A stretch of 64,000 bases of DNA, taken from the NCBI GenBank assembly GCA_035573675.1, contig DATMAB010000026.1, positions 114,501-178,500 of the forward strand. Direction: 5' to 3'. A program made the position numbers and the translations under genes. A model generated the notes under the pieces. That model was not told the origin of the DNA and made no database searches. It worked only from the letters and a program-made list of their open reading frames with translations. The stretch is from Terriglobales bacterium (lineage in GTDB: Bacteria; Acidobacteriota; Terriglobia; Terriglobales; Acidobacteriaceae). Shown piece by piece: positions 27,551-52,243 of the stretch (position 1 is the stretch's first letter; each line of letters begins with the position of its first letter).

Positions 27551-27615
27551 CGTGACCCTGGTCACTCGGGCGTGTGACTGCCATCACGCCGCCGCCTCGG
27601 TTCCGGTGCTACGGT
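27551..27615 (+). promoter_or_regulatory. CRP-type tandem operator and -10 upstream of the stress operon
   Basis: The 363-base gap between the membrane protein and the phosphoribosyltransferase has no gene. It contains two palindromes, CGTGA-N6-TCACT (27551-27566) and TGTGA-N6-TCACG (27573-27588), with centres 22 bp apart. A TACGGT hexamer, in a TGC-TACGGT extended -10 context, lies at 27610-27615, starting 29.5 bases from the centre of the second site. This is class-II activator spacing (about -41.5). A GGAGG follows before ATG 27645. Confidence 0.65.
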
Positions 27616-27644: not shown

Positions 27645-28301
27645 ATGTCCTTCTATGACCGCGCCGATGCCGGCCGCCGGTTGGCTGCCCTCCTGACGCA
27701 GTATCGCCGTCGCCCCGACGTGGTGGTGCTGGCCCTACCTCGGGGCGGAGTCGCCGTGGGCTTCGAGGTGGCTACCGCGCTGGAAGTGCCTCTGGATGTG
27801 TTCCTCGTGCGCAAGCTGGGCGTGCCGTTTCAACCGGAATTGGCCATGGGCGCCATCGCTTCCGGCGGCACGCGTGTGCTCAACCCGCTGGTGACGGATG
27901 CACTCGCCATCGCGCCGGAGGTCCTTGAGTCTGTGATCGCGCGCGAACAGGACGAACTGGAACGGCGCGAGCGGGTCTATCGGCAAGGTCGGCCCAAGCT
28001 TGACGTCAAGGGCAAGACGGCCATCCTAGTGGATGACGGTATCGCCACCGGATCGACCATGCGCGCCGCGGTCCTGGCGCTGCGCGAACAGGGAGTCAAG
28101 GAGATTGTGGTGGCCGTGCCGGTGGCGCCGCAGTCCGCCCTGGCCGAACTGGGCAGCCTGGCGGATGAACTGGTGTGCGTCCTCGAACCGAGCGAGTTTC
28201 TGGCCATCGGCGAGTGGTACCAGGATTTCTCCCAGCTGACCGATGAAGACGTGAACGAATTGCTGCGGCAAGCGGCTCAGCCGGCGGCCAAGGCCGGATG
28301 A
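27645..28301 (+). CDS. Phosphoribosyltransferase-family protein
   Basis: A 218-aa type I PRTase fold protein. The PRPP-binding loop is clear (AILVDDGIATGSTMRAA, about residues 124-140), and ALPRGGVAVGFEVA with VRKLGVPFQPELAMGAI near the N-terminus match the group often annotated as predicted PRTase. In many bacteria this domain is fused to or adjacent to a dienelactone-hydrolase-like protein; here such a hydrolase is encoded 2 kb downstream in the same run. The substrate is not known for this group. It is the first gene after a CRP-type promoter and probably starts the stress operon. Confidence 0.82.
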   Translation: MSFYDRADAGRRLAALLTQYRRRPDVVVLALPRGGVAVGFEVATALEVPLDVFLVRKLGVPFQPELAMGAIASGGTRVLNPLVTDALAIAPEVLESVIAREQDELERRERVYRQGRPKLDVKGKTAILVDDGIATGSTMRAAVLALREQGVKEIVVAVPVAPQSALAELGSLADELVCVLEPSEFLAIGEWYQDFSQLTDEDVNELLRQAAQPAAKAG

Positions 28302-32962: not shown

Positions 32963-33006
32963 TGTGATTAAGGTCACAGCCCGAATTCCCTTCCGGGGGT
33001 TCTACT
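32963..33006 (+). promoter_or_regulatory. CRP-type operator and -10 upstream of the first universal stress protein
   Basis: A perfect TGTGA-N6-TCACA palindrome lies at 32963-32978. A TCTACT hexamer at 33001-33006 starts 30.5 bases from its centre, and the gene starts at 33025. There is no second full site 22 bp upstream here. Confidence 0.6.
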
Positions 33007-33024: not shown

Positions 33025-33885
33025 ATGACGGGCGATGCCGAGCCGGTTCCTCCCTTCCGAAACATCCTGTTCGCGACGGATTTCTCCGGCGAGTCGCGGG
33101 CGGCCCTGCCCTACGCCCTCGCGCTGGCGCGCCGTTACGACGCCAAGCTGTTCTTGGCGCACGTAATCGTTCCTGAAGAAGAGACCTTGCGGGACGGTGA
33201 AGAGGCTCGCCGCGCCGCCCAGCTCCTGATGGAGGAAATCGAAAAGGAAGCCCAGGGAGCCAACGTGCCTACGCAAACCCTCCTGGCCTGCGGCTCCATT
33301 CACGTGCGTTTGTGCGAGCTGGTCCGGCAGCATCAGGTGGACCTCATTGTCACCGGCACGCATGGTCGCACCGGCTGGAAACGTTTGGTGCTGGGTTCCA
33401 CCGCCGAAGAAATCTTCCGCTGCGCGCCTTGCCCGGCGCTCACGGTGGGGCCGAAAGCCATCACTCGCGCGCACCTGCCTGACGTGCAGCACATCCTCTG
33501 CGCCACGGATTTTTCTCCGGAGTCGAGCCACGCTGCGCGCTACGCCCACGCGCTGGCGCGGGCGTATGACGCGCGCATCACCATGCTGCACGTGTTGCCG
33601 GGATTGCTGGCGTCCAACCCGGAGGCGGAAAAGCTGGCGCACATCTTCGTGGAGGAGATGCGCCGCCAGCTTCCCGGCGTGATCCCGGGCAAGACCTATC
33701 TGGAGTGCCGGCTGGCCTTCGGGGAGCCGTCGGAGGAGATCTTCCGCATGCGCGAAGCCAGCCAGGCCGATCTGGTCGTCCTCGGGGCGCGCCGGGCCGG
33801 CCGCTACGCCACCCATCTGCTGGGCGGGGTGGCGTACCGGGTGGTGGCCAGGGCGGAGTGCCCCGTGCTCATCGTGCCTTCCTAG
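33025..33885 (+). CDS. Tandem-domain universal stress protein (UspA family)
   Basis: Two Usp domains (about residues 10-150 and 155-286) are in one 286-aa cytoplasmic protein. Each begins with an I-L-F/C-A-T-D-F-S strand (NILFATDFSGESR; HILCATDFSPESS). The first ends with the ATP-binding pattern GTHGRTGWKRLVLGSTAEEI. The second has a weaker version (GARRAGRYATHLLGGVA), so perhaps only the first binds ATP. Such proteins mark growth arrest, low oxygen and other stresses. It is transcribed from a CRP-type promoter, and another double Usp gene faces it. Confidence 0.88.
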   Translation: MTGDAEPVPPFRNILFATDFSGESRAALPYALALARRYDAKLFLAHVIVPEEETLRDGEEARRAAQLLMEEIEKEAQGANVPTQTLLACGSIHVRLCELVRQHQVDLIVTGTHGRTGWKRLVLGSTAEEIFRCAPCPALTVGPKAITRAHLPDVQHILCATDFSPESSHAARYAHALARAYDARITMLHVLPGLLASNPEAEKLAHIFVEEMRRQLPGVIPGKTYLECRLAFGEPSEEIFRMREASQADLVVLGARRAGRYATHLLGGVAYRVVARAECPVLIVPS

Positions 33886-38439: not shown

Positions 38440-38505
38440 AGCCTACGGCCCGGGACAGGCAGGACACCGTGACAAGAGTCACATCGGGGTGTGACTCGCG
38501 TTACC
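38440..38505 (-). promoter_or_regulatory. CRP-type tandem operator and -10 for the PFOR-Usp operon
   Basis: Two palindromes, CGTGA-N6-TCACA (38468-38483) and TGTGA-N6-TTACC (38490-38505), have centres exactly 22 bp apart. On the minus strand TAGGCT (38445-38440) starts 30.5 bases from the proximal centre. Transcription would start near 38433, about 27 bases before ATG 38406. Confidence 0.6.
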
Positions 38506-38538
38506 TGTGTGCTTTACCCACGGACTGTCACCCCTGCT

Positions 38539-38581
38539 CGTGACCTCAATCACAGACGCTCACAGCCGCCGGTGGTGCAAT
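38539..38581 (+). promoter_or_regulatory. CRP-type operator and -10 for the Cys-rich membrane protein
   Basis: CGTGA-N6-TCACA lies at 38539-38554 and TGCAAT at 38576-38581, starting 29.5 bases from the palindrome centre. A half-site (TCACC, 38528-38532) is placed where a second site 22 bp upstream would have its right arm. The gene starts at GTG 38606. Confidence 0.6.
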
Positions 38582-38605: not shown

Positions 38606-39175
38606 GTGACCCTCGCGAATCTTCTTCTGATCGGCGCGCTCACTCTGGGTGGGCTGCTGGTTCTGTTGCGCCTGGTGCTGGCGATACGCTCGTATCGTCG
38701 CTTCCACGGCAAGATGCTGATTACCTGTCCCGAAAGCCGCACGCCCGAAGCGGTGGATGTCGAGGCCGGCCGCGCTGCCCTCACTGCCCTGGTCGGTACG
38801 CCGCACCTCCGCCTCAAGGACTGCACCCGCTGGCCGGAACGCGCCGACTGTGGCCAGGACTGCCTCACCCAGATTGCCGATCATCCTCAGGATTGCCTGG
38901 TGCGGAACATCGTGGCCCGCTGGTATGAAGGCAAGGGCTGCGTTTTCTGCGGCAAGTCCATCGCCACCGTCGATTGGCTCAAGCAGCGGCCCGCGCTGCT
39001 CTCCCCCGACCGCCGTACCGTGCAGTGGGACGAGGTGCATCCTGAGCGCCTGCCGGAAGTCTTCGCCACCCACCAGCCGGTGTGCTGGAACTGCCACATT
39101 GCCGAGTCCTTCCGGCGCGAGCACCCCGAGCGCGTCGTGGATCGCCCCCCGCACGACACCACCTACGTGGCCTGA
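38606..39175 (+). CDS. Cys-rich membrane-anchored hypothetical protein, about 189 aa
   Basis: No family recognised. From GTG 38606 (GGGAGG at 38594-38599) the protein starts with one membrane helix (LANLLLIGALTLGGLLVLLRLVL) and a basic stop-transfer region. The soluble part has about ten cysteines in small groups (ITCPES; DCTRWPERADCGQDCL; GCVFCGKS; PVCWNCHIAE). The last group is a CxxCH, the haem-c attachment motif, but the CxxC pairs could instead bind zinc or an Fe-S cluster. It has its own CRP-type promoter and sits between PFOR and the Mo operon, so a redox role is likely (inference). Confidence 0.65.
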   Translation: MTLANLLLIGALTLGGLLVLLRLVLAIRSYRRFHGKMLITCPESRTPEAVDVEAGRAALTALVGTPHLRLKDCTRWPERADCGQDCLTQIADHPQDCLVRNIVARWYEGKGCVFCGKSIATVDWLKQRPALLSPDRRTVQWDEVHPERLPEVFATHQPVCWNCHIAESFRREHPERVVDRPPHDTTYVA

Positions 39176-39195: not shown

Positions 39196-39238
39196 GGTGA
39201 CATCAGTCACAGCCTGCTGCGACGCGCGCGCTTATAAA
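39196..39238 (+). promoter_or_regulatory. CRP-type operator and TATAAA -10 for the Mo oxidoreductase operon
   Basis: GGTGA-N6-TCACA lies at 39196-39211 and a near-consensus -10 TATAAA at 39233-39238, starting 29.5 bases from the palindrome centre. A half-site TCACA (39185-39189) is at the position of the right arm of a site 22 bp further upstream. The first gene starts at ATG 39341, leaving a leader of about 95 bases. Confidence 0.7.
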
Positions 39239-39340: not shown

Positions 39341-41878
39341 ATGGCGACTGCGGCTTCTGCATATCAGGGCAAGTGGGTTCCCAGCACCTGCGGCATGTGC
39401 CTGCACGGATGCGGCATCAAGGTGCTGGTGAAGGACGGCGTGGCGCTCAAGATCGAGGGCGACCCCACCAATCCCGACAACCTGGGCAAGCTGTGCCCCA
39501 AGGGCAACGCCGGTCTGGCGCGCCTCTACGACGCCACCCGCATCCTGCATCCCATGAAGCGCACCAATCCCCGGAAAGGCCCGGGCGAGGATCCCGGCTG
39601 GATCAAGATCTCCTGGGAAGAAGCCTTCGAGATCACCGCCCGCGAGCTGGGCAAGATCCGCGCCGACGACCCGCGCAAGCTGCTCTGCGCCATCGGGGAC
39701 TTCCAGCGCATCGTGCTCTGGGGATGGCCGGCGGTGTTCGGCTCGCCGAATTTCTTTACTTCCCTGGGCAATTACTGTGGCGGTTCCTACCACCCGGTGA
39801 ACGGATCCGTGGATGGTTCCTTCGCCGCCATCAACGACTACGAGCGCTGCAATTACTGGATCCAGATCGGCTCCGGCGACGGCTTTTCCTCGCACCTGCA
39901 CGTTTCCGGCAGTTCCAAGCGCATGGCCGATGCCCGCATGCGCGGCATGAAGCTGGTCGTTCTCGACCCGCGATGCTCGGTAGCCGCCGCCAAGGCTGAC
40001 GAATGGATTCCGATTCTGCCGGGCACCGACCGCGCCTTCGTGCTGGGTATGGCCCACGTGCTGGTGCACGAACTGAACCGCTTCGACCGCGAGTTCCTGC
40101 GCGACCGCACCAATGCTCCCTATCTCGTCCAGGATGATGGGCACTTCTTCCGCGGCGAGGACGGCAAGGCCCAGGTGTGGGACACCCGCACCGGCGCCCC
40201 GGCCGCTTGGGACGCCGTCCCGCCGGAGGCCATGGCGCTCGAAGGCGTGTTCCTGGTGGACGGCCGGCGGCTCCGTACTGGTTTCCAGCTCTGGAAAAAC
40301 GTGCTGGTGAACTGCACGCCCGAGCGCATGAGCGAGGTCACTACCGTGCCCGCGGCCACGATCCGTCGCATCGCCCGCGAGTTCGTGGACGCGGCTCAGA
40401 TCGGCGCCACCATCGAGATCGAAGGCAAGACCTATCCTTTCCGCCCGGCGGCGCTCAATTACTACCGCGGCTCGCAATCGCACGCCAACGGCCTTTTCGA
40501 CAACCTGACCTACAAGCTGTTCAACATGCTGGTGGGCAATCTCGATGTGCCCGGCGGCCACCTGGGCGTGCCGCTCGACCATCGTGGCTTCTTCGTCAGT
40601 CCGGGGGAGGACGGCATGCTCAAGCCGGAGCCGCACCAGCTCCACCCGGCGCCGCCCTTCAAGTATCCCCCGGATTCCACCCACCTGATGGAATGGTTTC
40701 CCATCGGCTTCGACGCCGGCCAGCTCAACACCGAGACTCTGCTCGAGCCCGAACGTTTCGGCCTGCAGTACCGGCCCGAGGCCATGCTGCTCTACCACTC
40801 CAACCCGCTGTGGAACATGCCCGAGACGGACAAGGTGGAGCGCATCATGCGCCGCATGAAGTTCGTGGTCGCCATCGACATCCACCGCACGGAATCCACC
40901 GAGTGGGCCGACGTCTTCCTGCCCGACCAGACGTTCCTGGAGTCCACACTGCTGAATTGCCTGGAGCCGCCCGTGGTTACCGGGCACTCCGTGCGCCAGC
41001 CGGTGGTTGAGCCGCTGGGCGACACCAAGGACGCCTACGAGATCCTCACCGAACTGGCGGAGCGGCTGGGCTTCCGCGACGATTGGAACGACCTGCTCAA
41101 CGTGGTCTGCGGCTTCACGCAAAAGCCGCAGTACCTGCTCGACCCCGAGAAGCGCTACAGCGTCGAAGAACTGTGGGACCGCTATGCCCGCTCCATCTAC
41201 GGCGACGATCACGGCCTGGAATGGTTCAAGCAGAACGGCCACGCTGTCCGTCCGCGCACCGCCGATGAGACCTTCATGCCCTATGGCAATCTGCGCGTGC
41301 CTTTCTACTTCGAGTTCATCCAGCGCACCGGCGAAGATCTGCGCAAGAAAATGGAACAGGCCGGCGTTCAGGATTGGCCGTTCGACAACTACAAGCCGCT
41401 GCCGTTCTGGAAGCCTTCGCCGGTCATCGAGGATGGCGCCCGCGGCTATCCCTTCTACGCCATCACCTTCAAGGAAGTGCTGCACACCTTCGCTGACACG
41501 GTGGTGATGCCCTGGCTCACGGAAATCAGCGAAAAGGACGCGGTGCACGGTGGCATCCTCATCAACTCAAAGACCGCCGCGAAGTTCGGCATCCGCACCG
41601 GCACCCGCATTCGTCTCACGTCACCGGCCGGCTTCATCGAGGGCGTGGCCCAGGTGGTGGAGGGCATCCACCCGCAGGTGCTGGGAGTCAGCAACGCCAT
41701 CACCCGCGAGTTCGTCACCAACCGCGAAGTGCGCGTCAAGGGCAGCCACTTCAACCGGCTGCTCACCGGCTCCATGCGCTACACGGATAACGCCACCGGC
41801 GGCCTGGAATCCACCGCGCGCGTGCGTTTGGAGATCGCCCCGAAATGGGGCCAGGAGGCTCACGATGCCGACGATTGA
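39341..41878 (+). CDS. Molybdopterin (bis-MGD) oxidoreductase, catalytic subunit
   Basis: An 845-aa DMSO-reductase-superfamily enzyme. The N-terminal [4Fe-4S] motif is canonical (Cys17-x2-Cys20-x3-Cys24-x27-Cys52). The likely Mo/W ligand is Cys146 (GNYCGGSYHP), as in the formate dehydrogenase/polysulfide reductase/arsenate reductase branch. The C-terminal cofactor-binding domain has TGTRIRLTSPAG. There is no twin-arginine signal, so the enzyme should stay in the cytoplasm, unlike most Psr/Phs/Ttr-type partners of NrfD. It is followed by MoaD-like, ferredoxin and NrfD genes. The substrate cannot be read from sequence. ATG 39341 has GGAG ten bases upstream; an in-frame GTG at 39260 would add 27 residues without a signal. 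Confidence 0.85.
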   Translation: MATAASAYQGKWVPSTCGMCLHGCGIKVLVKDGVALKIEGDPTNPDNLGKLCPKGNAGLARLYDATRILHPMKRTNPRKGPGEDPGWIKISWEEAFEITARELGKIRADDPRKLLCAIGDFQRIVLWGWPAVFGSPNFFTSLGNYCGGSYHPVNGSVDGSFAAINDYERCNYWIQIGSGDGFSSHLHVSGSSKRMADARMRGMKLVVLDPRCSVAAAKADEWIPILPGTDRAFVLGMAHVLVHELNRFDREFLRDRTNAPYLVQDDGHFFRGEDGKAQVWDTRTGAPAAWDAVPPEAMALEGVFLVDGRRLRTGFQLWKNVLVNCTPERMSEVTTVPAATIRRIAREFVDAAQIGATIEIEGKTYPFRPAALNYYRGSQSHANGLFDNLTYKLFNMLVGNLDVPGGHLGVPLDHRGFFVSPGEDGMLKPEPHQLHPAPPFKYPPDSTHLMEWFPIGFDAGQLNTETLLEPERFGLQYRPEAMLLYHSNPLWNMPETDKVERIMRRMKFVVAIDIHRTESTEWADVFLPDQTFLESTLLNCLEPPVVTGHSVRQPVVEPLGDTKDAYEILTELAERLGFRDDWNDLLNVVCGFTQKPQYLLDPEKRYSVEELWDRYARSIYGDDHGLEWFKQNGHAVRPRTADETFMPYGNLRVPFYFEFIQRTGEDLRKKMEQAGVQDWPFDNYKPLPFWKPSPVIEDGARGYPFYAITFKEVLHTFADTVVMPWLTEISEKDAVHGGILINSKTAAKFGIRTGTRIRLTSPAGFIEGVAQVVEGIHPQVLGVSNAITREFVTNREVRVKGSHFNRLLTGSMRYTDNATGGLESTARVRLEIAPKWGQEAHDADD

Positions 41879-42152
41879 TGTGGCCGCGCTGGGCACGGCG
41901 CGCAAGCTGCTCGGTTTCTCACGGCGCACCGTCCCGTTCGAAGAGGGTACGGTAGCGGATCTGCTGCGCTCGCTCGACACCCTCGACGGCGGCAACCTCT
42001 ACGCCTGCCTCACCTGCGAGGGCCGGCTGCGCGGCGATTTTGCCGTCCTGGTGGACGGCCTCAGTCTCAAACCCGATCAGCTCGACCGTCCCCTCCAGGG
42101 CGGCGAGCAGGTCGTGACCATGGCGATTCTGCGTCATTTGCACGGCGGTTAG
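41865..42152 (+). CDS. MoaD/ThiS-like sulfur-carrier protein
   Basis: A 95-aa ubiquitin-fold protein starting at ATG 41865, inside the end of the oxidoreductase gene (14-base overlap), with GGAGG seven bases upstream. The segments GTVADLLRSL, FAVLVDGLSL and LDRPLQGGEQVVTMAILRHL follow the MoaD pattern, and the protein ends in Gly-Gly, the residues that become a thiocarboxylate. MoaD donates sulfur to make molybdopterin dithiolene. A copy dedicated to this operon suggests local support of cofactor synthesis for the oxidoreductase, or another sulfur-transfer role. Confidence 0.75.
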   Translation: MPTIDVAALGTARKLLGFSRRTVPFEEGTVADLLRSLDTLDGGNLYACLTCEGRLRGDFAVLVDGLSLKPDQLDRPLQGGEQVVTMAILRHLHGG

Positions 42153-42165
42153 CGGGGAGGAACGT

Positions 42166-42780
42166 ATGGCCCGACTGGGAATGGTGATCGACCTCAAACG
42201 CTGTATCGGCTGCAACGCTTGCACCGTGGCCTGCAAGCAGGAGAACGGCACACCCGCCGGAGTCCACTTCGCCCGTGTCATCACCCGCGAAGTGGGCACC
42301 TACCCGCAGACCCGGCGAACCTTCCTGCCCGTGCTCTGCAATCACTGCGACGACGCCCCCTGCGCCCAGGTCTGTCCCAGCGGCGCTACGCATATCCGCG
42401 CGGACGGAATCGTCATGGTGGACAAGGACGTCTGCATCGGCTGCCGCGCCTGCGCCGTAGCCTGCCCCTACATGAACCGCCACTACATCGAGCGCGGCCT
42501 GCTCGCCCACGGCTACAGCGGGGATGGGGTCAGCCCGCTGGAGGCGGTGAAGTTTACCCAGTTCGAAGAGGGCACCATGACCAAGTGCACGTTCTGTGCC
42601 CACCGCGTGGATCAGGGTCTGGAGCCGGCCTGTGTGGTTACCTGCCCGACCGAGGCGCGCATCTTTGGCGACCTCGACCAGAAAGACGGACGCCTGCGGC
42701 GGTTGATCCGCGAGCGTAACGGCTGGACGCTCCTGCCCGAAGCCGAAACCAAGCCCAGCGTGTACTACCTGGACGAATAG
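42166..42780 (+). CDS. Four-cluster [4Fe-4S] ferredoxin subunit (DmsB/PsrB/NrfC type)
   Basis: A 204-aa electron-transfer subunit with four cysteine groups: RCIGCNACTVACKQ, LCNHCDDAPCAQVCP, VCIGCRACAVACP and CTFCAHR then CVVTCP. They would hold four cubane clusters carrying electrons between the Mo subunit and NrfD. There is no signal peptide, in line with the catalytic subunit. It follows the MoaD-like gene by 13 bases with a GGGGAGG ribosome site. Confidence 0.92.
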   Translation: MARLGMVIDLKRCIGCNACTVACKQENGTPAGVHFARVITREVGTYPQTRRTFLPVLCNHCDDAPCAQVCPSGATHIRADGIVMVDKDVCIGCRACAVACPYMNRHYIERGLLAHGYSGDGVSPLEAVKFTQFEEGTMTKCTFCAHRVDQGLEPACVVTCPTEARIFGDLDQKDGRLRRLIRERNGWTLLPEAETKPSVYYLDE

Positions 42781-42792
42781 AGTGAGGGAACC

Positions 42793-43701
42793 ATGAGCGC
42801 GCAATCTTCCATCGCCATCGCGCCGCACCGCTTCGCTTACGGCTACTACCGTCAGAGCTGGTGGAACTGGCTGATCGGCACTGCCTTTTTCTTCGGCGAG
42901 ATCGGCGCCGGCCTCTTCCTGGTTTCTCTGCTCACCGGGCCTGCGCTCGGCATGCTGGTGGGCTACCTCATCGTCATGGCGGGCAAGAACACCGCCCACC
43001 TCATGTACCTTGGCCGGCCCGCCCGCTTCTGGCGCGCCGCCATGCGGCCGGACCGCTCCTGGATCGCGCGCGGCATCTGGGCCACCGGCATCTTCGGCGC
43101 GAGCGGAGCCCTTCTGCTGCTGCCGCAGTTTTTCCCGCTCCCGTGGCAGCCGCAAGGAGCGACCGCTTCCGCCGTGACGTGGTTGGCCGGTCTCTCCGCC
43201 CTCTTCATCATGTTTTACGACGGCTTCGTCATGAACTCGTCCCGCGCTATCCCGTTCTGGAACACCGGCATGCTCCCACTGCTGTGCCTTACCTATGCCG
43301 CACTGGGCGGAACTACTCTTTCTCTCACCCTGCGCGAACTCACCGGCCTCGGCGAGGCGGCGCCCTCGCTTCTCGTCCAGGTCGAATACATCCTGCTGGT
43401 CACCAACTTCGTGCTGCTGGCCATGTACCTGGCGCACATGTGGGACTGGTCTCCGGCCGCCCGCGAAACGGTGCGCATGCTGGTGGTCGGGCGCTATGCC
43501 CGCTTCTTCCTTGGCCTGGTGCTGGCCGTAGGACTGGTGGCCACTCTCCTGCTGGCCGTTGTGCACAGCCGCATGCACGCCACCTGGCTGGCCATCCTCA
43601 TCGCCGCCTGCGAGCTTACCGGCGACTTCGCGCTGCTCATGGTGTTGCTGAAATCGGGCTTGTTTTCTCCGCAGACCGCTCCTGCATTCCGCAGCTCCTG
43701 A
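42793..43701 (+). CDS. NrfD/PsrC-type membrane subunit
   Basis: A 302-aa integral membrane protein with about eight helices. NrfD-family proteins oxidise or reduce quinone in the membrane and pass electrons to the ferredoxin subunit. Visible marks are GAGLFLVSLLTGPALGM, GKNTAHLMYLGRPARFW (the loop with Lys, His and GRP-RFW is typical), and MNSSRAIPFWN. With the previous genes it completes a three-subunit CISM-type complex. It starts 12 bases after the ferredoxin gene. Confidence 0.88.
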   Translation: MSAQSSIAIAPHRFAYGYYRQSWWNWLIGTAFFFGEIGAGLFLVSLLTGPALGMLVGYLIVMAGKNTAHLMYLGRPARFWRAAMRPDRSWIARGIWATGIFGASGALLLLPQFFPLPWQPQGATASAVTWLAGLSALFIMFYDGFVMNSSRAIPFWNTGMLPLLCLTYAALGGTTLSLTLRELTGLGEAAPSLLVQVEYILLVTNFVLLAMYLAHMWDWSPAARETVRMLVVGRYARFFLGLVLAVGLVATLLLAVVHSRMHATWLAILIAACELTGDFALLMVLLKSGLFSPQTAPAFRSS

Positions 43702-43778: not shown

Positions 43779-44090
43779 ATGCTGCCCTCGCAGTTCGAGC
43801 AATTGAAGAAGGACTACCCCGAGGTCTGGAAGGCATTCACCGAGCTGGGCGACCGTTGCCACCACGCCGGACCCCTGGACGACAAGACGCGCCGTCTCAT
43901 CAAGCTGGCGCTGGCCGTCGGCGGCGGCCTGGAAGGTGCGGCGCATTCGGCCGTGCGCAACGCCCTGGCTGCCGGCATCCAGCCCGAGGAGCTCCGCCAG
44001 GTGGCTCTGCTGGCGGTCACCACGCTCGGCTTCCCGGCCGCCATGCGTGCGCTCACCTGGATCGCCGACCAGACGCAAAACCAGGGCTGA
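43779..44090 (+). CDS. Carboxymuconolactone decarboxylase/AhpD-family protein, 103 aa
   Basis: A small all-helical protein from ATG 43779 (GGAAAGGA upstream). The core DKTRRLIKLALAVGGGLEG then SAVRNALAAGIQPEELRQVALLA matches the CMD fold. The CxxC of peroxidase-active AhpD proteins is absent (GLEGAAHSAV instead), so thiol peroxidase activity is unlikely. Its role in the operon is not known. It is 77 bases after nrfD and 51 bases before the Crp/Fnr gene. Confidence 0.8.
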   Translation: MLPSQFEQLKKDYPEVWKAFTELGDRCHHAGPLDDKTRRLIKLALAVGGGLEGAAHSAVRNALAAGIQPEELRQVALLAVTTLGFPAAMRALTWIADQTQNQG

Positions 44091-44141: not shown

Positions 44142-44855
44142 ATGCGGACTCCCTACGGCCTGCAGATCCTGGACAGTTGCCTCACCTGTGAGCTCAGGGA
44201 GAAGCGCCTTTTTTGCAATCTTTCTCCTACCGCCGTCAGGGACCTGGAAGCCATCCGCTCCACCGCTTCGTATCCCGCGGGCGCCGTGTTGTATGTGGAA
44301 GGCCAGAACCCGCGCGGGGTGTTTATCCTGTGCCAGGGGCGGGCCAAGCTCACCGCCTCTTCGGCCGAGGGCAAGACGCTCATCCTGAAGATTGTGGAGC
44401 CGGGTGAAGTGCTGGGGCTGAGCAGCACCGTCTCCGGCAAGCCCTACGAGGCCACCGTCGAGTTGCTCGAGCCCACCCAGGTCAACTTCATCCGCCGCGA
44501 CGAGTTCCTCAACTTCCTGCGCCGCCACGGCGATGCCGCCTTGCGCGTCGCCCAGCAGCTCAGCCAGAACTATCACACCGCCTACCAGGAGATCCGCACG
44601 CTGGGCCTGTCGCAGTCCGCCTCGGAGAAGCTGGCCCGCCTGTTGCTGGAGTGGTCGGCCAACGACAACTCCGGCCGCGGCCTGAAACTGAAGCTCACGC
44701 TCACCCACGAAGAGATCGCGCAGATGATCGGCACCTCACGCGAGACCGTGACCCGCGCTTTCGCCGACCTCAGAAAACGCCGCTTTATCGAAGTCCGCGG
44801 CGCCACGGTCACCATCCGCGACCGCACCGCGCTCGAAAGCCTGGTCGGCGCTTAA
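44142..44855 (+). CDS. Crp/Fnr-family transcription regulator with four cysteines
   Basis: A 237-aa dimeric activator. Residues about 35-150 are the cNMP-binding-type sensor domain (YPAGAVLYVEGQNPRGVF). Residues about 165-230 carry the winged helix (HEEIAQMIGTSRETVTRAF). The recognition helix has Arg200, Glu201 and Arg205 in the same spacing as E. coli CRP Arg180, Glu181 and Arg185, which read TGTGA. The only four cysteines are Cys13, Cys16, Cys25 and Cys64, a CxxC...C...C set that could hold an Fe-S cluster as in FNR (inference). It is the best candidate for the regulator of the TGTGA-N6-TCACA sites around it. No clear site is seen at its own start, so it may be read through from the Mo operon. 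Confidence 0.88.
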   Translation: MRTPYGLQILDSCLTCELREKRLFCNLSPTAVRDLEAIRSTASYPAGAVLYVEGQNPRGVFILCQGRAKLTASSAEGKTLILKIVEPGEVLGLSSTVSGKPYEATVELLEPTQVNFIRRDEFLNFLRRHGDAALRVAQQLSQNYHTAYQEIRTLGLSQSASEKLARLLLEWSANDNSGRGLKLKLTLTHEEIAQMIGTSRETVTRAFADLRKRRFIEVRGATVTIRDRTALESLVGA

Positions 44856-44966: not shown

Positions 44967-45009
44967 GGTGACTTAAGTCACAGCGCTCGCCCTAGCAAAG
45001 CGATATCAA
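44967..45009 (+). promoter_or_regulatory. CRP-type operator and -10 for the cNMP-binding protein
   Basis: GGTGA-N6-TCACA (44967-44982; the inner bases CTTAAG extend the symmetry) is followed by TATCAA at 45004-45009, starting 29.5 bases from the palindrome centre. A half-site TCACT (44956-44960) is where the right arm of a site 22 bp upstream would be. The gene starts at 45031. Confidence 0.65.
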
Positions 45010-45030: not shown

Positions 45031-45468
45031 ATGTCCCACATCCAGCATGCCGACCGGGCTTTCGCTTCCCCGGCCGACGCGGATCCCTGGCACGACCTGA
45101 ACGGCACTCGCCAGGTGCGCCGCTACCCGGAAGGTGCGGTTCTGTTCGAGGAGGGGCGGATGGCCGAGGGCGCCCTGCTGGTGCGTTCCGGGCGGGTCAA
45201 GCTCTCGGTGTCCTCACCCCGCGGCAAGACCCTGCTGCTGGAAGTCGCCGGCCCGGGCGAGATGTTGGGCCTCAGCGCCGTGCTCTCCGGCCGCCCCCAT
45301 GAGGTCACCGCCTGCGCCATTTCGCCGGTGGAGGCGGTGTTCTTCCCCCGCCAGGAGTTCCTCCATTACCTGGAGGACCACCCCGATGCCTGCCTGCGGG
45401 TCGTCAGCCTCCTCACCACCGACCTCGACGCCGCCTACGACCGGGTGCGCAACCTGCATCGACGTTAA
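45031..45468 (+). CDS. Stand-alone cyclic-nucleotide-binding-domain protein (Crp/Fnr without helix-turn-helix)
   Basis: A 145-aa paralogue of the sensor half of the upstream regulator: RYPEGAVLFEEGRMAEGALL, SVSSPRGKTLLLEVAGPGEMLGLSAVLSG and ISPVEAVFFPRQEFLHYL align with it closely. It ends at about the dimerisation helix (LDAAYDRVRNLHRR) and has no DNA-binding domain; the following 20 bases do not encode one in any frame. It lacks the N-terminal cysteine set. It could be a decay product, or a modulator forming mixed dimers with the full regulator (inference). It has its own CRP-type promoter. Confidence 0.8.
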   Translation: MSHIQHADRAFASPADADPWHDLNGTRQVRRYPEGAVLFEEGRMAEGALLVRSGRVKLSVSSPRGKTLLLEVAGPGEMLGLSAVLSGRPHEVTACAISPVEAVFFPRQEFLHYLEDHPDACLRVVSLLTTDLDAAYDRVRNLHRR

Positions 45469-45487: not shown

Positions 45488-45552
45488 TGTGACATTTGTC
45501 ACATCCCCGGGTGACGCGAGTCACGGTTCTCGGCCCTTCGGTCCCTTATTCT
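45488..45552 (+). promoter_or_regulatory. CRP-type tandem operator and -10 for the Fe-S repair gene
   Basis: A perfect TGTGA-N6-TCACA (45488-45503) and GGTGA-N6-TCACG (45510-45525) have centres 22 bp apart. TATTCT at 45547-45552 starts 29.5 bases from the centre of the second site. ATG 45573 follows a GGAGGG. Confidence 0.7.
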
Positions 45553-45572: not shown

Positions 45573-46313
45573 ATGAATCTGGACCCGAAGAAGACGGTTG
45601 GCGAACTGGCCCTGGAAACGCCCGCGCTCTTGCCGGTGTTCGAAGAGCTGGGTATCGACTACTGCTGCGGCGGACAGGTTCCCCTGGAGCAGGCGTGCCG
45701 CAAGGCGGAGGTCCCCGTGGAGCAGGTGGCGCAGCGGCTGGAAGAGCGCGCCGCCATCGCCCAGGAGCGGGAGCGCGACTGGATGAACGAGCCCTTGTTC
45801 GGGCTCGTCGCTTATATCGTCAATCATCATCATTACTTCACGCGTCGCGAAACCGCCCGTTTGGAAGAGCTGCTGCGCAAGGTCTGTGACGCGCATGGCG
45901 AGAAGCGCCCCGAGCTGTTCCGTATGCGCGACCTGTTCCGCGCGCTCTCCGGCGAGTTGCACATGCATATGGCACGCGAAGAGCAGGTCTTGTTCCCCTA
46001 CATCACCGACCTGGAGAAGCGCGTGACACGGCATGAGCCCGTCCTGCCTCCTCCGTTCGGTACCGTGCTCAACCCCATTCGCATGATGATGCACGAGCAC
46101 GATTCGGCCGGGGAAACGCTCAAGGCCCTTCGCAGCCTGGCCGCCGGCTACGCCGTTCCTGCCGAGGCCTGCATGAGCTGGCGCGCTCTCTACCAGGGAC
46201 TGCAGGAATTCGAGCAGGACCTGCATCGCCACATCCACCTGGAGAACAATCTGCTGTTCCCGCGCGCCGCCAAGCTCGAGGAAAAGGTGGAGACCCGCGC
46301 GGCCACGGCCTGA
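45573..46313 (+). CDS. RIC-family (ScdA/YtfE/NorA-like) di-iron iron-sulfur repair protein
   Basis: A 246-aa protein with an N-terminal ScdA_N domain (VGELALETPALLPVFEELGI then DYCCGG with Cys31-Cys32) and a C-terminal hemerythrin-like four-helix bundle. Likely iron ligands lie in NHHHYFTRRE, HMHMAREEQVLFP, MMMHEHDSAGE and HRHIHLENNLLFP. RIC proteins restore Fe-S clusters damaged by nitric oxide or peroxide. Placement behind two CRP-type sites and near Fe-S-rich enzymes (PFOR, Mo complex) fits that role. ATG 45573 is chosen because of the ribosome site. Confidence 0.9.
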   Translation: MNLDPKKTVGELALETPALLPVFEELGIDYCCGGQVPLEQACRKAEVPVEQVAQRLEERAAIAQERERDWMNEPLFGLVAYIVNHHHYFTRRETARLEELLRKVCDAHGEKRPELFRMRDLFRALSGELHMHMAREEQVLFPYITDLEKRVTRHEPVLPPPFGTVLNPIRMMMHEHDSAGETLKALRSLAAGYAVPAEACMSWRALYQGLQEFEQDLHRHIHLENNLLFPRAAKLEEKVETRAATA

Positions 46314-46656: not shown

Positions 46657-47793
46657 ATGGATCGCGAAATGATGGCCGTGCCCCGGCGTCCGTTCGACTT
46701 CAACCAGCGCCCGCTGGTGCTGATTTGGGAAACCACCCAGGCCTGCGATTTGACCTGCGCCCACTGCCGCGCCTGCGCCCAGCCCTTGCGCCACCCGCTC
46801 GAGCTCTCCACCGTCGAGGCTCGCGGCCTTATCGACCAGGTCGCCGCCTGGGAAGTCCCGGTCTTCGTGCTCACCGGCGGCGATCCCCTCAAGCGCCCCG
46901 ACATCTATGACATCGTCGAGTACTCCGCCGAGCGTGGCGTGCGCGCCTCGCTCACTCCCAGCGCCACCCCGCTGCTCACGCGCGAGGCCATCGAGGAATT
47001 GAAGCGCCGCGGCCTGGCCCGGCTGGCCGTCAGCCTGGACGCTTCCACGCCCGAGATCCACGACGCTTTCCGCGGCGTGCCCGGCGCCTGGGAGCGTGCC
47101 CTGTCCGCCGTGCGCTGGGCCAGCGACTGCCATCTGCCCCTGCAGATCAACACCACCGTCACCCGCCGCAACCTCGACGACCTGGACAACATGGTCGCCC
47201 TGCTCGACCGCTTGCACATCGTGCTGTGGAGCGTGTTTTTCCTGGTGCCCACCGGCCGCGGCCAGCTCGAGGACATGATCTCGCCCGACGAAGCCGAGCA
47301 GGTCTTCCGCAAGCTCTGGTCGTACGAAAGTTCCGGCCGCACCCGCTTTCACATCAAGACCACCGAAGGCATGCACTACCGCCGCTTCGTGCTCCAGCAG
47401 AAGGCCGCGGCCCGCGCCAATGGCGAGGGCTCGGTCAACGGCGCCATCTTCGAAGAGATTGCCCGCGCCCGCCAGGGCGTCAACGACGCTAAGGGCTTCA
47501 TGTTCGTTTCCCACGTCGGCGAGGTCTATCCCAGCGGCTTCCTCCCGCTCTCGGCCGGCAATATCCGCACCCAGCCGCTGGCCGAGATCTACCAGCGCTC
47601 GCCCCTGTTCCTTTCCCTGCGCGACCCCAGGAATCTGAAAGGGAAATGCGGCCTGTGCGAGTTCAACGACATCTGCGGAGGCTCCCGCGCCCGCGCCTAC
47701 GCCACCTCCCGCGACGTCTTCGCCGAGGAGCCCTGCTGTGCCTATCTGCCGGGTCTTTACCGCCGCGAGGCCTCTGCGCCCGCAGCCGGCTAG
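46657..47793 (+). CDS. Radical SAM/SPASM protein (resembles the TIGR04053 family)
   Basis: A 378-aa protein starting at ATG 46657 behind GAGGGAG. The radical SAM cluster is Cys30-x3-Cys34-x2-Cys37 (QACDLTCAHC). FVLTGGDPLKRPD follows as the SAM-binding GGD-P element, then LAVSLDASTPEIHDAFRGVPG. The C-terminal SPASM region (CGLCEFNDICGGSRARAYA, then CC) would bind further clusters. The pattern is close to the haem-pathway-like radical SAM/SPASM group (AhbC/NirJ relatives). The substrate is unknown. It lies after the RIC gene and may be a redox-linked cofactor-modifying enzyme (inference). Confidence 0.82.
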   Translation: MDREMMAVPRRPFDFNQRPLVLIWETTQACDLTCAHCRACAQPLRHPLELSTVEARGLIDQVAAWEVPVFVLTGGDPLKRPDIYDIVEYSAERGVRASLTPSATPLLTREAIEELKRRGLARLAVSLDASTPEIHDAFRGVPGAWERALSAVRWASDCHLPLQINTTVTRRNLDDLDNMVALLDRLHIVLWSVFFLVPTGRGQLEDMISPDEAEQVFRKLWSYESSGRTRFHIKTTEGMHYRRFVLQQKAAARANGEGSVNGAIFEEIARARQGVNDAKGFMFVSHVGEVYPSGFLPLSAGNIRTQPLAEIYQRSPLFLSLRDPRNLKGKCGLCEFNDICGGSRARAYATSRDVFAEEPCCAYLPGLYRREASAPAAG

Positions 47794-48067
47794 CGCTGCA
47801 ACCGTCATCCGTCGCTGCCTTTGGACAGCCACGTGCACTTGCAACCGGGGAGTTGTTGCCAGAACCCGATTCAAAAGAACTTAGGGGCCTTTTGCATCCA
47901 GAACCCGGACGCCGTTGTCTTGATTCCGGACGACGCGCGGGTGTGCCCGTGCTGCGGGCGCTCCTCCTGTTGAATCTGGACGCTTGTCGGGAGTACATTC
48001 TGCGGCAACAGGTCCGCAGCCTACGTCGCCTCGTTTCTGCGAGCGCCCGGCCCACGGGGGTGCTCGC

Positions 48068-51000
48068 GTGAGCCAGCGAATCCCGCACGACCGCGAGGCT
48101 GCCCATCGCCGGCTGCTCGACCGCATCCCGGTCGGCACTTTCCGCAGCACCGTGAGCGGGCGCATCCTGGAATGCAACCAGACCTTCGCCGACATCTTCG
48201 GCTATGACTCGCCGGAAGAAGCCTGCTCGGTCCCGGCCCTCGCCTTTTATGTGGACCCGGCGGAGCGAGAGGCGGCCATTGCCCGCCTGCGTCGGGACGG
48301 CTCGCTCACCAACTTCGAAGGCCTCCTCCGCCGCAAGGACGGCGCCCTCGTCTGGACCCTGGAAAACTGCACCCTCGTCTCCGACGAGGGCGGCCAGGAG
48401 GTGATTGAAGGGACCACCATCGATATCACCGCCCGCAGGCAGGCCGAGGCGGAGCGGAACAAGCTGGCTGAGCGCGATCACGCCCTCGTCCAGGCCATCG
48501 GCCAGATTGTTTACGAATGGCGGCCGGGCATCAGCTTTGTCTGTGAGGGCGATCTCTCGGGTGTGCTCGGCTACTCGCCTGAGGAGATGGGCGCCGACAT
48601 TGAAAGCTGGACCAGCCGCATTCATCCCGATGATGTGAAGCGTGCCGTCACTGAACTGGAGCAGTGCACGCTCGAGCGCAGAAACTATTCTGCCGAGTAC
48701 CGCTTCCGCCACAAGGACGGCGCCTACCGCTGGATGAGCGACCAGGGGGTTTGCTTCTTCACCCCCGGCGGCGACCTGGAGCGCATGATCGGCGTCTTCA
48801 GGGACATCACCGCCCGCAAGCAGGCCGAAGAGAAGCTCCAGGCGAGCGAGCAGCACCTCCGCCGCGTCCTGGATGGGCTCGGCCCGCACATGTTCGTGGC
48901 CTTGCTGACTCCGGACGGCAAGGTCCTCGAAGCCAACCGCAATGCCCTCGAAGCCGCCGGATTGCGCAGCGAGGACGTCCTGGGGAAGCCGGTCGAGGAA
49001 ACCTACTGGTGGTCGTACGCGGAATCAGTGCAGCAACAGTTGCGTGCGGCGGTTCAGCGCGCGGCGGCCGGAGAGACCGTGCGCTACGACGTGGACATAC
49101 GCGTGGCGGCAGGCCGGTTCATCACCCTCGACTTCTGCATTCATCCTCTGCTCGGTCTCGACGGCACCGTCGAATACCTGGTTCCTTCCGGTGTGGTCAT
49201 CACCGAGCGCAGGCGCGCGCAAGAAGCGTTGCGGGCGTCGGAAGAGAAGTTTCACAAGGCCTTCCACGCCGCCCCCGATGCCCTTTCCATCGCCCGTCTC
49301 GACGACGGCCGCTTCCTCGAGGTCAACCAGGCCTTCGAGCGCATGACCGGCTATAGCCGCAGCGAAGTTCTGGGCCGCAACTCGCTGGAGCTCGGCATCA
49401 CGGTCGATCCCCATCAGCGCGCGGCCATGGTGGAGGCGCTTCGCCGCCAGGGCAGCGTCCGCGACCTCGACTTCTATTTCCGCACCAAGCAAGGCAGGGT
49501 GCGCTTCGGCCAGTTGGGCGCGGAACTCATCCGGCTTGCAGACCAGGATTGCTACCTCGTCGTGGCCCGCGACATCACCGAGCAGAAGCAGGCCCAGGAA
49601 GCCCTCCTCGAAAGCGAAGACCGCTACCGCGATCTGATCCAGAACAGCGAAGACCTCATCTGCACCCACCTGCTCGGCGGCCGCATCCTCTCCGCCAATC
49701 CTGCCGCCTCTCGCATCCTGGGCTACGAGCTGCCGGATCTCCTCCGCATGAACATCCGCGACATCCTGGCCCCCGAGGTTCGGCCCGCCTTCGACCAGTA
49801 CATCGACCAGTTGGAGCGGGAAGGCTCGGCCCGCGGGCGCATGCTCGTCCAGACCCGCAGCGGCGAAAAGCGCATCTGGGAGTACGCCAACACCCTGCGG
49901 TCCGAAGGTATGGCGAGCCCCATCGTGCGCGGCATGGCCCACGACGTCACCGAGCGCGAGCGCGCCCAGCAGGCGTTCCGCGAGAGCGAAGCCCGCTTGC
50001 GCCTCTCCGCCGAGGCTGCCAACGTCGGCCTGTGGGATTGGGACTTGCTCACCAACCAGGTCGTCTACTCTCCCCAGTGGAAGAGCCAGATCGGCTATGC
50101 CGAGGACGAGATTTCTGATTCCTTTCAGGAGTGGGAGACTCGCGTCCATCCCGACGACCTCGAACCCACGCTGCAAAAGGTCCGCGCCTTCCTCGCCAAC
50201 CCGCAGGGCAAACACGAGGCCGAGTTTCGCTTCCGCCACAAGGACGGCTCCTATCGCTGGATCTACACCCAGGCCGACGTGCTGCGCGACACCCGCGGCA
50301 AGCCCGTGCGCATGCTGGGCTGCCACCTCGACATCACCGAGCGCAAGCGCGCCGAGCAGAAAATGCGCGACAGTGAAGCCAGCTTCCGCCTGCTGTTCGC
50401 CAGCAGCCCTCAGCCCATGTGGGTCTTCGACACGGAAACCCTCTCCTTCCTCGAGGTCAACCAGGCCGCCGTCCGCAAATACGGCTACTCCCGCGACGAA
50501 TTCCTGCGCCTGCGCATCACGGACATCCGCCCGCCCGAAGACGTTCCCCGTCTCCTGGAACAGCTGCGCGCCGCGGACCGCGGCGAATACGAACTGCGTC
50601 CCGGAGAGTGGCGGCACATTCTCAAGGACGGCCGCATCATTGACGTCGAGGTCGTTTCCCACGACCTGGAATTCGGCGGACGCCCTGCGCGCCTGGTGCT
50701 GGCCACCGACATCACGGAGCGCAAGCGCATAGAACGCGACCTGCGGGATAACGAGCAGCGGTTCCGGTTGCTGGCCGACACCGCTCCGGCTGCCATCTAT
50801 CTCCAAAATGCCGACGGCTTCATCTACGTGAACCCGGCCGCGGAGGCCATCTCCGGCTACTCGCGCGACGAGCTCCTAGGCATGGGGCCCTGGGACCTCG
50901 TCGGGCCGGAACGGGCCGCGGCCATGCGCTCTTTGGCCACCTCGCGCCTCAGTGCCGACCGGCCTCAGGACCGCTACGAGACTTCAATCGTGCGCAAAGA

Positions 51001-52243
51001 CGGAGAGCTTCGTTGGGTCGATTTGTCCGTCGACCGCCTCGAAGTCCGGGGCGGGCGTTTGATTCTGGGTTTCGCCGAAGACATCACCGAGCGCAAGCGC
51101 GCACAAGAGGCTCTCCAACGGGCCGCCGTCGAATGGCGTCAGACCTTCGATGCCTTGCAGGCCTGCATCCTCGTCCTCGACGGTGACGGGCGCGTCGTCC
51201 GCCTCAACCGCGCCGCCGTCGAGTCGCTGGGCGGCGAACTCAGGACCTACCCTGGACTGCGGCTGGCCGAAGTCGGCAGCGGCCCGCTCTGCCAGGCCGC
51301 CGCCCAACTCGCCGCGCAGTGTCAACTCCAGGGCGAACGCTTAACCTCCACCATCACGGACTCTGCCTCCGGCACGGTATGGGACGTCGCCGCCCTTCCG
51401 CTGGAGCTGCCACGAACCGGCGCCGGCACGCTGTTGGTCCTGCGCGACATCACCGAGACCGTGCGCCTGCAGGAAACCTTGACCCGCCAGCAGACCCTGG
51501 CAGCGCTCGGCAACCTGGTGGGCGACGTCGCCCACGAGGTTCGCAATCCGCTGTTCGCCATCTCTGCCACCGTGGATTCCTTCGAGGCCCGCCACGGCCA
51601 GAAACCCGAGTACGAACGCTACCTCACGCCCCTCCGCCGCGAACTCGCTCGCCTCGAGGCGCTGATGCGCGACCTGCTCGAGTACGGCAAGCCCGTCAGC
51701 ATGCAGCTCACTCCCGTCCCGCCCCGCGACGTCGTGGCCCAGGCCTTCATGTCGTGCGAGGCCCTGGCACGCCGCGCCGGCATCACCATCGAAAACCGTG
51801 TACCCAAAGACCTTTCCGGCGTCGCGATGGATCGTGACCGCATGGCCCAGGTCTTTCAGAATCTGCTGGAAAACGCCATCCAGCACACGCCCACCGGCGG
51901 AAAGGTCATCATCGAGGCCGCGCTAGGTTCCATGGATTCGCAACCTTGGCTGGAGTGGCGTGTCCGCGACTCCGGCCCGGGCTTCACCCCGGTCGATCTG
52001 CCGCGCGTCTTCGAGCCGTTTTACACCCGGCGCAAGGGAGGAACCGGCCTCGGACTCGCCATTGTGCAACGCATCGTTGAGGCCCACGGCGGCACCGTCA
52101 CCGCCGCCAACCATCCTGATGGCGGGGCCCTCATCACCGTACGCCTGCCTGCCGGTCAACAGCGCCCCGAAGCCTCGCTCCCGGCTCCCAAGCCCACGGC
52201 GAGCAGCGCGGCACGGTCGGCTTCTCAGGTGGAAGGACTCTGA
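48068..52243 (+). CDS. Soluble multi-PAS sensor histidine kinase (nine PAS domains)
   Basis: A cytoplasmic kinase of about 1391 aa from GTG 48068. Nine successive PAS/PAC units, each ending in an (I/V)T(E/A)(R/Q)(K/R)-type linker (for example [27 protein letters not shown]), cover about residues 15-1135. The HisKA domain has the phospho-accepting His at about 1156 (VAHEVRNPL). The HATPase domain has [24 protein letters not shown], and [17 protein letters not shown]. No transmembrane helix and no receiver domain are present, and no response regulator is encoded next to it. PAS arrays often sense oxygen, redox state or small ligands. The 274 bases before the start hold nothing I recognise. Confidence 0.88.

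Follow-up and report, generated by a model that had tools for sequence, protein, structure and literature searches.

The window analyzed here, that is, the whole stretch of 64,000 nucleotides, is part of contig C26 in a 3.16-Mb genome that is 99% complete. It contains the gene of a regulator of the CRP/FNR superfamily (hereafter REG), followed by the gene of an HTH-less paralog (hereafter SEN) and by that of the Fe-S cluster repair protein RIC. The features of this region and the palindromes discussed below, all on the forward strand, are as follows.

27551..27588, +: tandem palindromes at 27551 and 27573, 22 bp apart, 5' of a phosphoribosyltransferase-domain gene (27645-28301), with TACGGT as the -10-like hexamer of the pair at 27610-27615
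32963..32978, +: perfect palindrome TGTGATTAAGGTCACA, 5' of the gene of a double-Usp protein (33025-33885)
38468..38554, +: three palindromes (38468, 38490, and 38539), the first two 22 bp apart, 5' of the gene at 38606-39175
39196..39211, +: palindrome 5' of the Mo-oxidoreductase operon whose last gene is REG, with TATAAA at 39233-39238
39341..43701, +: Mo-oxidoreductase block of four genes
39341-41878, +: molybdopterin oxidoreductase
41865-42152, +: MoaD-like protein
42166-42780, +: 4Fe-4S subunit
42793-43701, +: NrfD-like subunit
43779..44090, +: CMD/AhpD-like protein, just 5' of REG
44142..44855, +: REG, 237-aa CRP/FNR-superfamily regulator with an ATG start, from the open reading frame and Pfam
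44178..44216, +: codons of Cys13-x2-Cys16-x8-Cys25, the same in 85 of 86 homologs, with one gap
44331..44333, +: codon of Cys64, present in 86 of 86 homologs and aligned to R72 of Escherichia coli FNR, not to C122
44736..44756, +: core of the recognition helix, SRETVTR
44967..44982, +: palindrome GGTGACTTAAGTCACA, 5' of SEN, with TATCAA at 45004-45009, 29 bp from its centre
45031..45468, +: SEN, 145-aa HTH-less paralog of REG with a beta-roll and a full dimerisation helix, the next gene after REG
45488..45525, +: tandem palindromes at 45488 (TGTGACATTTGTCACA) and 45510 (GGTGACGCGAGTCACG), 22 bp apart, 5' of RIC, with TATTCT as the -10-like hexamer of the pair at 45547-45552
45573..46313, +: RIC (YtfE/ScdA) di-iron Fe-S cluster repair protein, a putative target (TIGR03652, 241 bits, cut-off 205)
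46657..47793, +: radical SAM/SPASM protein (TIGR04053, 462 bits, cut-off 395)

A table of neighboring genes at homologous loci was used for REG, SEN, RIC, and the radical SAM protein, relatives of whose superfamily come after the regulator in many genomes. Judging from the spacing, the CMD/AhpD-like gene is probably on the same transcript as REG. In the sister species, the block from 38606 to RIC has the same gene order and the sites are at the same places. The product of the gene at 38606-39175 is small, rich in Cys, hydrophobic at its N-terminus, and without a Pfam match, and an apparent relative of it (locus L025, 673-1281) likewise lies behind a tandem pair. On the 3' side of the radical SAM gene there is an open reading frame of 1419 aa (47984-52243) whose product reads like a sensor histidine kinase with multiple PAS domains.

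REG matched the Pfam families HTH_Crp_2 (PF13545, 9e-21) and cNMP_binding (PF00027, 1.2e-18), both above cut-off, and displays the features of the superfamily, namely a cNMP-type beta-roll, a dimerisation helix, and HTH_Crp. Its structural model aligned with a TM-score of about 0.85 to both GlxR and FNR, while the N-terminal Cys loop was modelled poorly (pLDDT 39-63). A preliminary description of this locus had stated that the protein contains only four cysteines, all in the sensor half, and translation of the open reading frame 44142-44855 bears this out: cysteines were found at positions 13, 16, 25, and 64 and nowhere else, the first three forming a CX2CX8C motif at the N-terminus and Cys64 sitting in the beta-roll. 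The same description had proposed an Arg-Glu-x3-Arg recognition helix as in CRP, which also holds, with SRETVTR at residues 199-205 (S199-R205; the predicted HTH helix spans 200-212). Conservation was counted over 86 full-length homologs taken from the loci fetched, in all of which R200, E201, and R205 are invariant. A second alignment of 54 sequences with 54-67% identity displayed the same conservation of the four Cys and of R/E/R. At the level of conservation, this argues strongly for a joint function of all four cysteines of REG. The named close relatives are Acidobacteriota; among the best 25 matches from plasmids, only distant relatives (<31% identity) were found.

The claim that the cysteine set is FNR-like stood in part. 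We used the FNR and CRP sequences of E. coli MG1655 as references. Like FNR, REG has three invariant N-terminal cysteines and a distant one, but their spacing is CX2CX8C instead of the CX2CX5C of the FNR ligands, so that the third Cys is spaced by 8 residues and not by 5. Moreover, the position of the fourth FNR ligand, C122, is occupied in REG by Asn115, invariant across the 54 sequences, and Cys64 lies on another strand than that position. In the usual jelly-roll topology the strand of Cys64 neighbours the one that carries the C122 position in FNR, and the fourth ligand of REG may thus have shifted to the adjacent strand. The NCBIfam Fnr model (PRK11161) scored REG at 38.9 bits, far under its cut-off of 228.

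That the fourth cysteine does not occupy the FNR ligand position speaks for a different chemistry, in which the same regulator would control the same regulon through a thiol/disulfide switch or a zinc site with no Fe-S cluster. One CX2C pair could suffice for it, and there is a precedent in CprK, a CRP-FNR protein that is reported to be reversibly inactivated through disulfide formation (PMC2610375). Four cysteines rather than two are invariant in REG, however, the CX2C..C arrangement plus a distant Cys resembles the ligand sets of the FNR type, and Fe-S repair and O2-labile enzymes are among the putative targets. We consider a thiol or zinc switch unlikely.

A cyclic-nucleotide-responsive CRP, with structural cysteines and a regulon of carbon or general stress control, would account for the CRP-type recognition helix and site, and the best structural and sequence neighbours of REG are indeed cAMP-binding CRPs such as GlxR. 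On the other hand, the residues that contact the cAMP phosphate in CRP, E72 and R82, align with a gap and with Tyr102 in REG, the NCBIfam CRP model (PRK11753) scored 59.1 bits against a cut-off of 266, and the putative target genes point to redox, NO, and anaerobic functions rather than to carbon control. We regard this explanation as highly improbable.

The recognition helix had been taken to predict TGTGA half-sites, and both sites named in the preliminary description exist, at 27573 (TGTGACTGCCATCACG) and 39196 (GGTGACATCAGTCACA), each with one mismatch. A scan of the window alone with up to two mismatches yielded 18 matches against 14.75 expected, that is, no excess, and for this reason other genomes were used to decide. 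The shared target that emerged is conserved and reads (T)GTGAY-N4-RTCAC(A), typically in two copies 22 bp apart. Specifically, when one mismatch at most was allowed, a site was found within 300 bp 5' of the regulator in 61 of 80 homologous loci and within 300 bp downstream in 55 of 78, as compared with 3.2% of random 300-bp stretches from the same loci. Control spacers of 3, 5, and 6 and other palindromes gave almost no matches near homologs. Genome-wide, there are 19 copies of GTGAC-N4-GTCAC versus 2 of the reversed control, and the 64-kb window, which makes up 2% of the genome, contains 6 of the 19 (binomial p ~1.5e-6); at least one strict genomic site falls within a coding frame (locus L017). 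The tandem pattern was present in 30 of 31 related genomes that encode the regulator and in 4 of 30 that do not (61 genomes; p=5e-12, kinship ignored), and the window's own genome has 18 tandem matches versus 1 for the control. Two candidates were rejected. FNR-type TTGAT-N4-ATCAA sequences as targets are at chance level in the window (7 versus 8.0 expected) and rare near homologs. Other CRP-type regulators as owners of the sites were dismissed because only two proteins of this genome score strongly for HTH_Crp_2, namely REG and a paralog with 56% identity on contig C25. The idea that CRP-type palindromes are the targets is therefore backed by the phylogenetic footprint, by co-occurrence, and by the promoter geometry described below, and from these sequence comparisons the link between REG and the palindromes is strongly supported.

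Among pairs of sites no more than 80 bp apart, with at most one mismatch per site, 75 of 101 are spaced by exactly 22 bp, and the window contains three such pairs (27551/27573, 38468/38490, and 45488/45510). In three separate sets of sites, a TATAAT-like hexamer starts 29 bp past the centre of the proximal site, with z-scores of 4.7 for sites 5' of the regulator, 4.5 for those 5' of the next gene, and 4.9 for six window targets. By this distance, the centre of the proximal site would fall near -41.5 and that of the distal site near -63.5, an arrangement that suggests class II activation with another dimer bound two turns of the helix farther upstream. The 22-bp tandem geometry and the class II position go beyond the preliminary description, as do the second paralogous pair and the HTH-less partner at 45031-45468 described below.

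Within the window, the putative targets are the phosphoribosyltransferase-domain gene, the double-Usp gene, the gene at 38606-39175, the molybdopterin-oxidoreductase operon with REG, SEN, and RIC. Elsewhere in the genome, sites precede or flank genes of an NnrS-like protein and an Rrf2-type regulator, hemerythrin, nitroreductase-like, VIT1, and CoA ligase-like proteins, a Dps-like ferritin, and CcmF. Among relatives, the genes 3' of tandem sites encode SEN, AhbD-related radical SAM proteins, multihaem cytochromes, and Usp proteins. Pyruvate:ferredoxin oxidoreductase (PFOR) is found in relatives divergent from the regulator with tandem sites, and because the two genes lie side by side the shared sites may serve either of them. 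The preliminary description had expected a regulon explained by oxygen or NO sensing, and RIC, NnrS-like, hemerythrin, Usp, nitroreductase, PFOR, and multihaem cytochromes as putative targets do fit O2, NO, and redox stress. The common theme of these putative targets would thus be low oxygen, NO, and Fe-S damage.

Some of the neighborhoods contain further arrangements. The NnrS-like protein (L009:1573-3015, contig C6) has a DUF1858/ScdA_N-like N-terminus, and its gene is divergent from that of the Rrf2-type regulator and lies behind three palindromes. In many partner-less loci (the L077-L101 group, e.g., L077, L083, and L094), an AhbD/NirJ-related radical SAM gene follows the regulator behind conserved palindromes. 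A Cys-containing family without a Pfam match (L019:1566-2237 and L022:9076-9804 (-); motif around ERDLLEVLKFELEFLEQGGYGR) is located 3' of tandem sites in 16 related loci, and a relative is also 3' of sites in the window's genome.

SEN matched cNMP_binding alone in Pfam, and its AlphaFold model (mean pLDDT 84.6) consists of a beta-roll, a short helix, and a long terminal helix (118-144). Counting only loci that have 1 kb or more of flank, it adjoins the regulator in 34 of 74. No HTH was detected in SEN in any of 36 loci, nor any HTH remnant within 500 bp after the gene, while the same HTH-motif test was positive in 79 of 80 regulators. Ratios of dN/dS between close pairs ranged from 0.02 to 0.18, with 0.124 in the window's genus (window versus sister species), and by this measure SEN is under purifying selection. 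Since none of the 36 loci has such a remnant and dN/dS lies far under 1, a frameshifted or decayed regulator was ruled out. In the tree, regulators stood apart from partners with 97% SH-aLRT for the regulators, several partner branches being long and the detail unsure; the topology fits one old duplication as the origin of the REG/SEN split. The genome contains a second pair of regulator and HTH-less partner (L018:599-2055, contig C25) beside Usp, nitroreductase-like, VIT1, and CoA-ligase genes, and the HTH-less neighbour of this paralog also has a palindrome in front. A 502-aa stop-to-stop frame had made this second partner a candidate fusion, which was discarded since translation from its own start yields an HTH-less protein of 167 aa.

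SEN is probably a feedback antagonist of REG and may thus act as its brake, although it is missing from about half of the loci and thus cannot be essential to the mechanism. Alternatively, SEN could be a co-sensor, a reservoir of cluster or ligand, or a positive heterodimer partner at half-sites. The retention of CX2CX8C in 30 of 36 SEN proteins, and of all four Cys in 29 of 36, implies that sensing is retained in most lineages. Nevertheless, the four-Cys motif is lost from SEN in the window and in the sister species, where dN/dS is still 0.12, so SEN cannot generally be a reservoir, and the sites are full palindromes, which speaks against a half-site partner. We consider such non-antagonist roles possible, though somewhat doubtful.

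As one explanation of the whole, we moderately favor a dimeric REG activator with an Fe-S cluster, tandem CRP-type sites, and negative feedback by SEN. The cysteines of REG would hold a cluster labile to O2 or NO, FNR-like in function with one ligand position different, and the state of the cluster would set REG dimerisation or DNA binding. Two REG dimers would bind next to each other on the same DNA face, with activation from -41.5 helped from -63.5, and would switch on genes of low oxygen, NO stress, and Fe-S repair. REG would also drive its neighbour gene SEN, whose product would pair with REG through the dimerisation helix. The resulting heterodimer would be unable to hold a full palindrome and would thereby exert negative feedback on the response. 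More tentatively, this system could be a conserved counterpart, in bacteria, of the Id-type inhibitors, in which a REG-induced HTH-less paralog caps the low-oxygen/NO response through non-binding heterodimers, in combination with an Fe-S sensor of relocated ligand and CRP sites that are mostly 22-bp tandems.

The fold and the general logic of REG are already known. In the literature searched, which lay mostly outside subscription journals, we found no paper that describes either the REG family or an FNR/CRP partner lacking an HTH. The combination of a relocated fourth Cys, CRP-type reading, a fixed tandem geometry, and an HTH-less partner was not found there either, nor was any O2/NO regulator of Acidobacteriota described. 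Acidobacteriota rank among the most abundant soil bacteria. What this work supplies can be put to direct test: a regulator family, its DNA word, the layout of its promoters, and a putative regulon. REG would part the FNR-like cysteine sensor from the FNR DNA word, two elements usually taught as one, and SEN offers a clean test case for the question of whether CRP/FNR-superfamily paralogs that cannot bind DNA are used by bacteria as feedback antagonists.

Among known systems, FNR, the [4Fe-4S] oxygen sensor of E. coli and A. fischeri, has in common with REG the CRP fold, the three N-terminal cysteines plus a distant one, a putative anaerobic and NO-related regulon, and the class II geometry at -41.5. 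In contrast, the FNR helix reads TTGAT half-sites with E-xx-S-R, whereas REG would read TGTGA with SRETVTR, and the tandem 22-bp sites and the HTH-less partner set REG further apart. CRP of E. coli, GlxR, and the CRP of Mtb are the closest solved folds. They and REG are alike in the R-E-x3-R recognition residues and in the TGTGA-N6-TCACA palindrome, but the lack of residues matching E72/R82, the four invariant Cys, and the putative redox/NO regulon distinguish REG from them. A Crp/Fnr protein of Bernardetia sp. (Bacteroidota; WP_338790804), 30% identical to REG, resembles REG in its CX2CX8C N-terminus and carries a Cys on the beta-strand of Cys64, two residues earlier, but its recognition helix differs (TATESAIR). 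CprK, likened here by description as another Cys-containing CRP/FNR regulator, represents the possible alternative chemistry, although it senses chlorophenols, unlike the putative O2/NO signal of REG. Finally, in Herbaspirillum seropedicae the FNR paralogs Fnr1 and Fnr3 heterodimerise via the dimerisation helix (PMC5934665); both of those partners bind DNA, whereas in the REG/SEN pair SEN carries no HTH.
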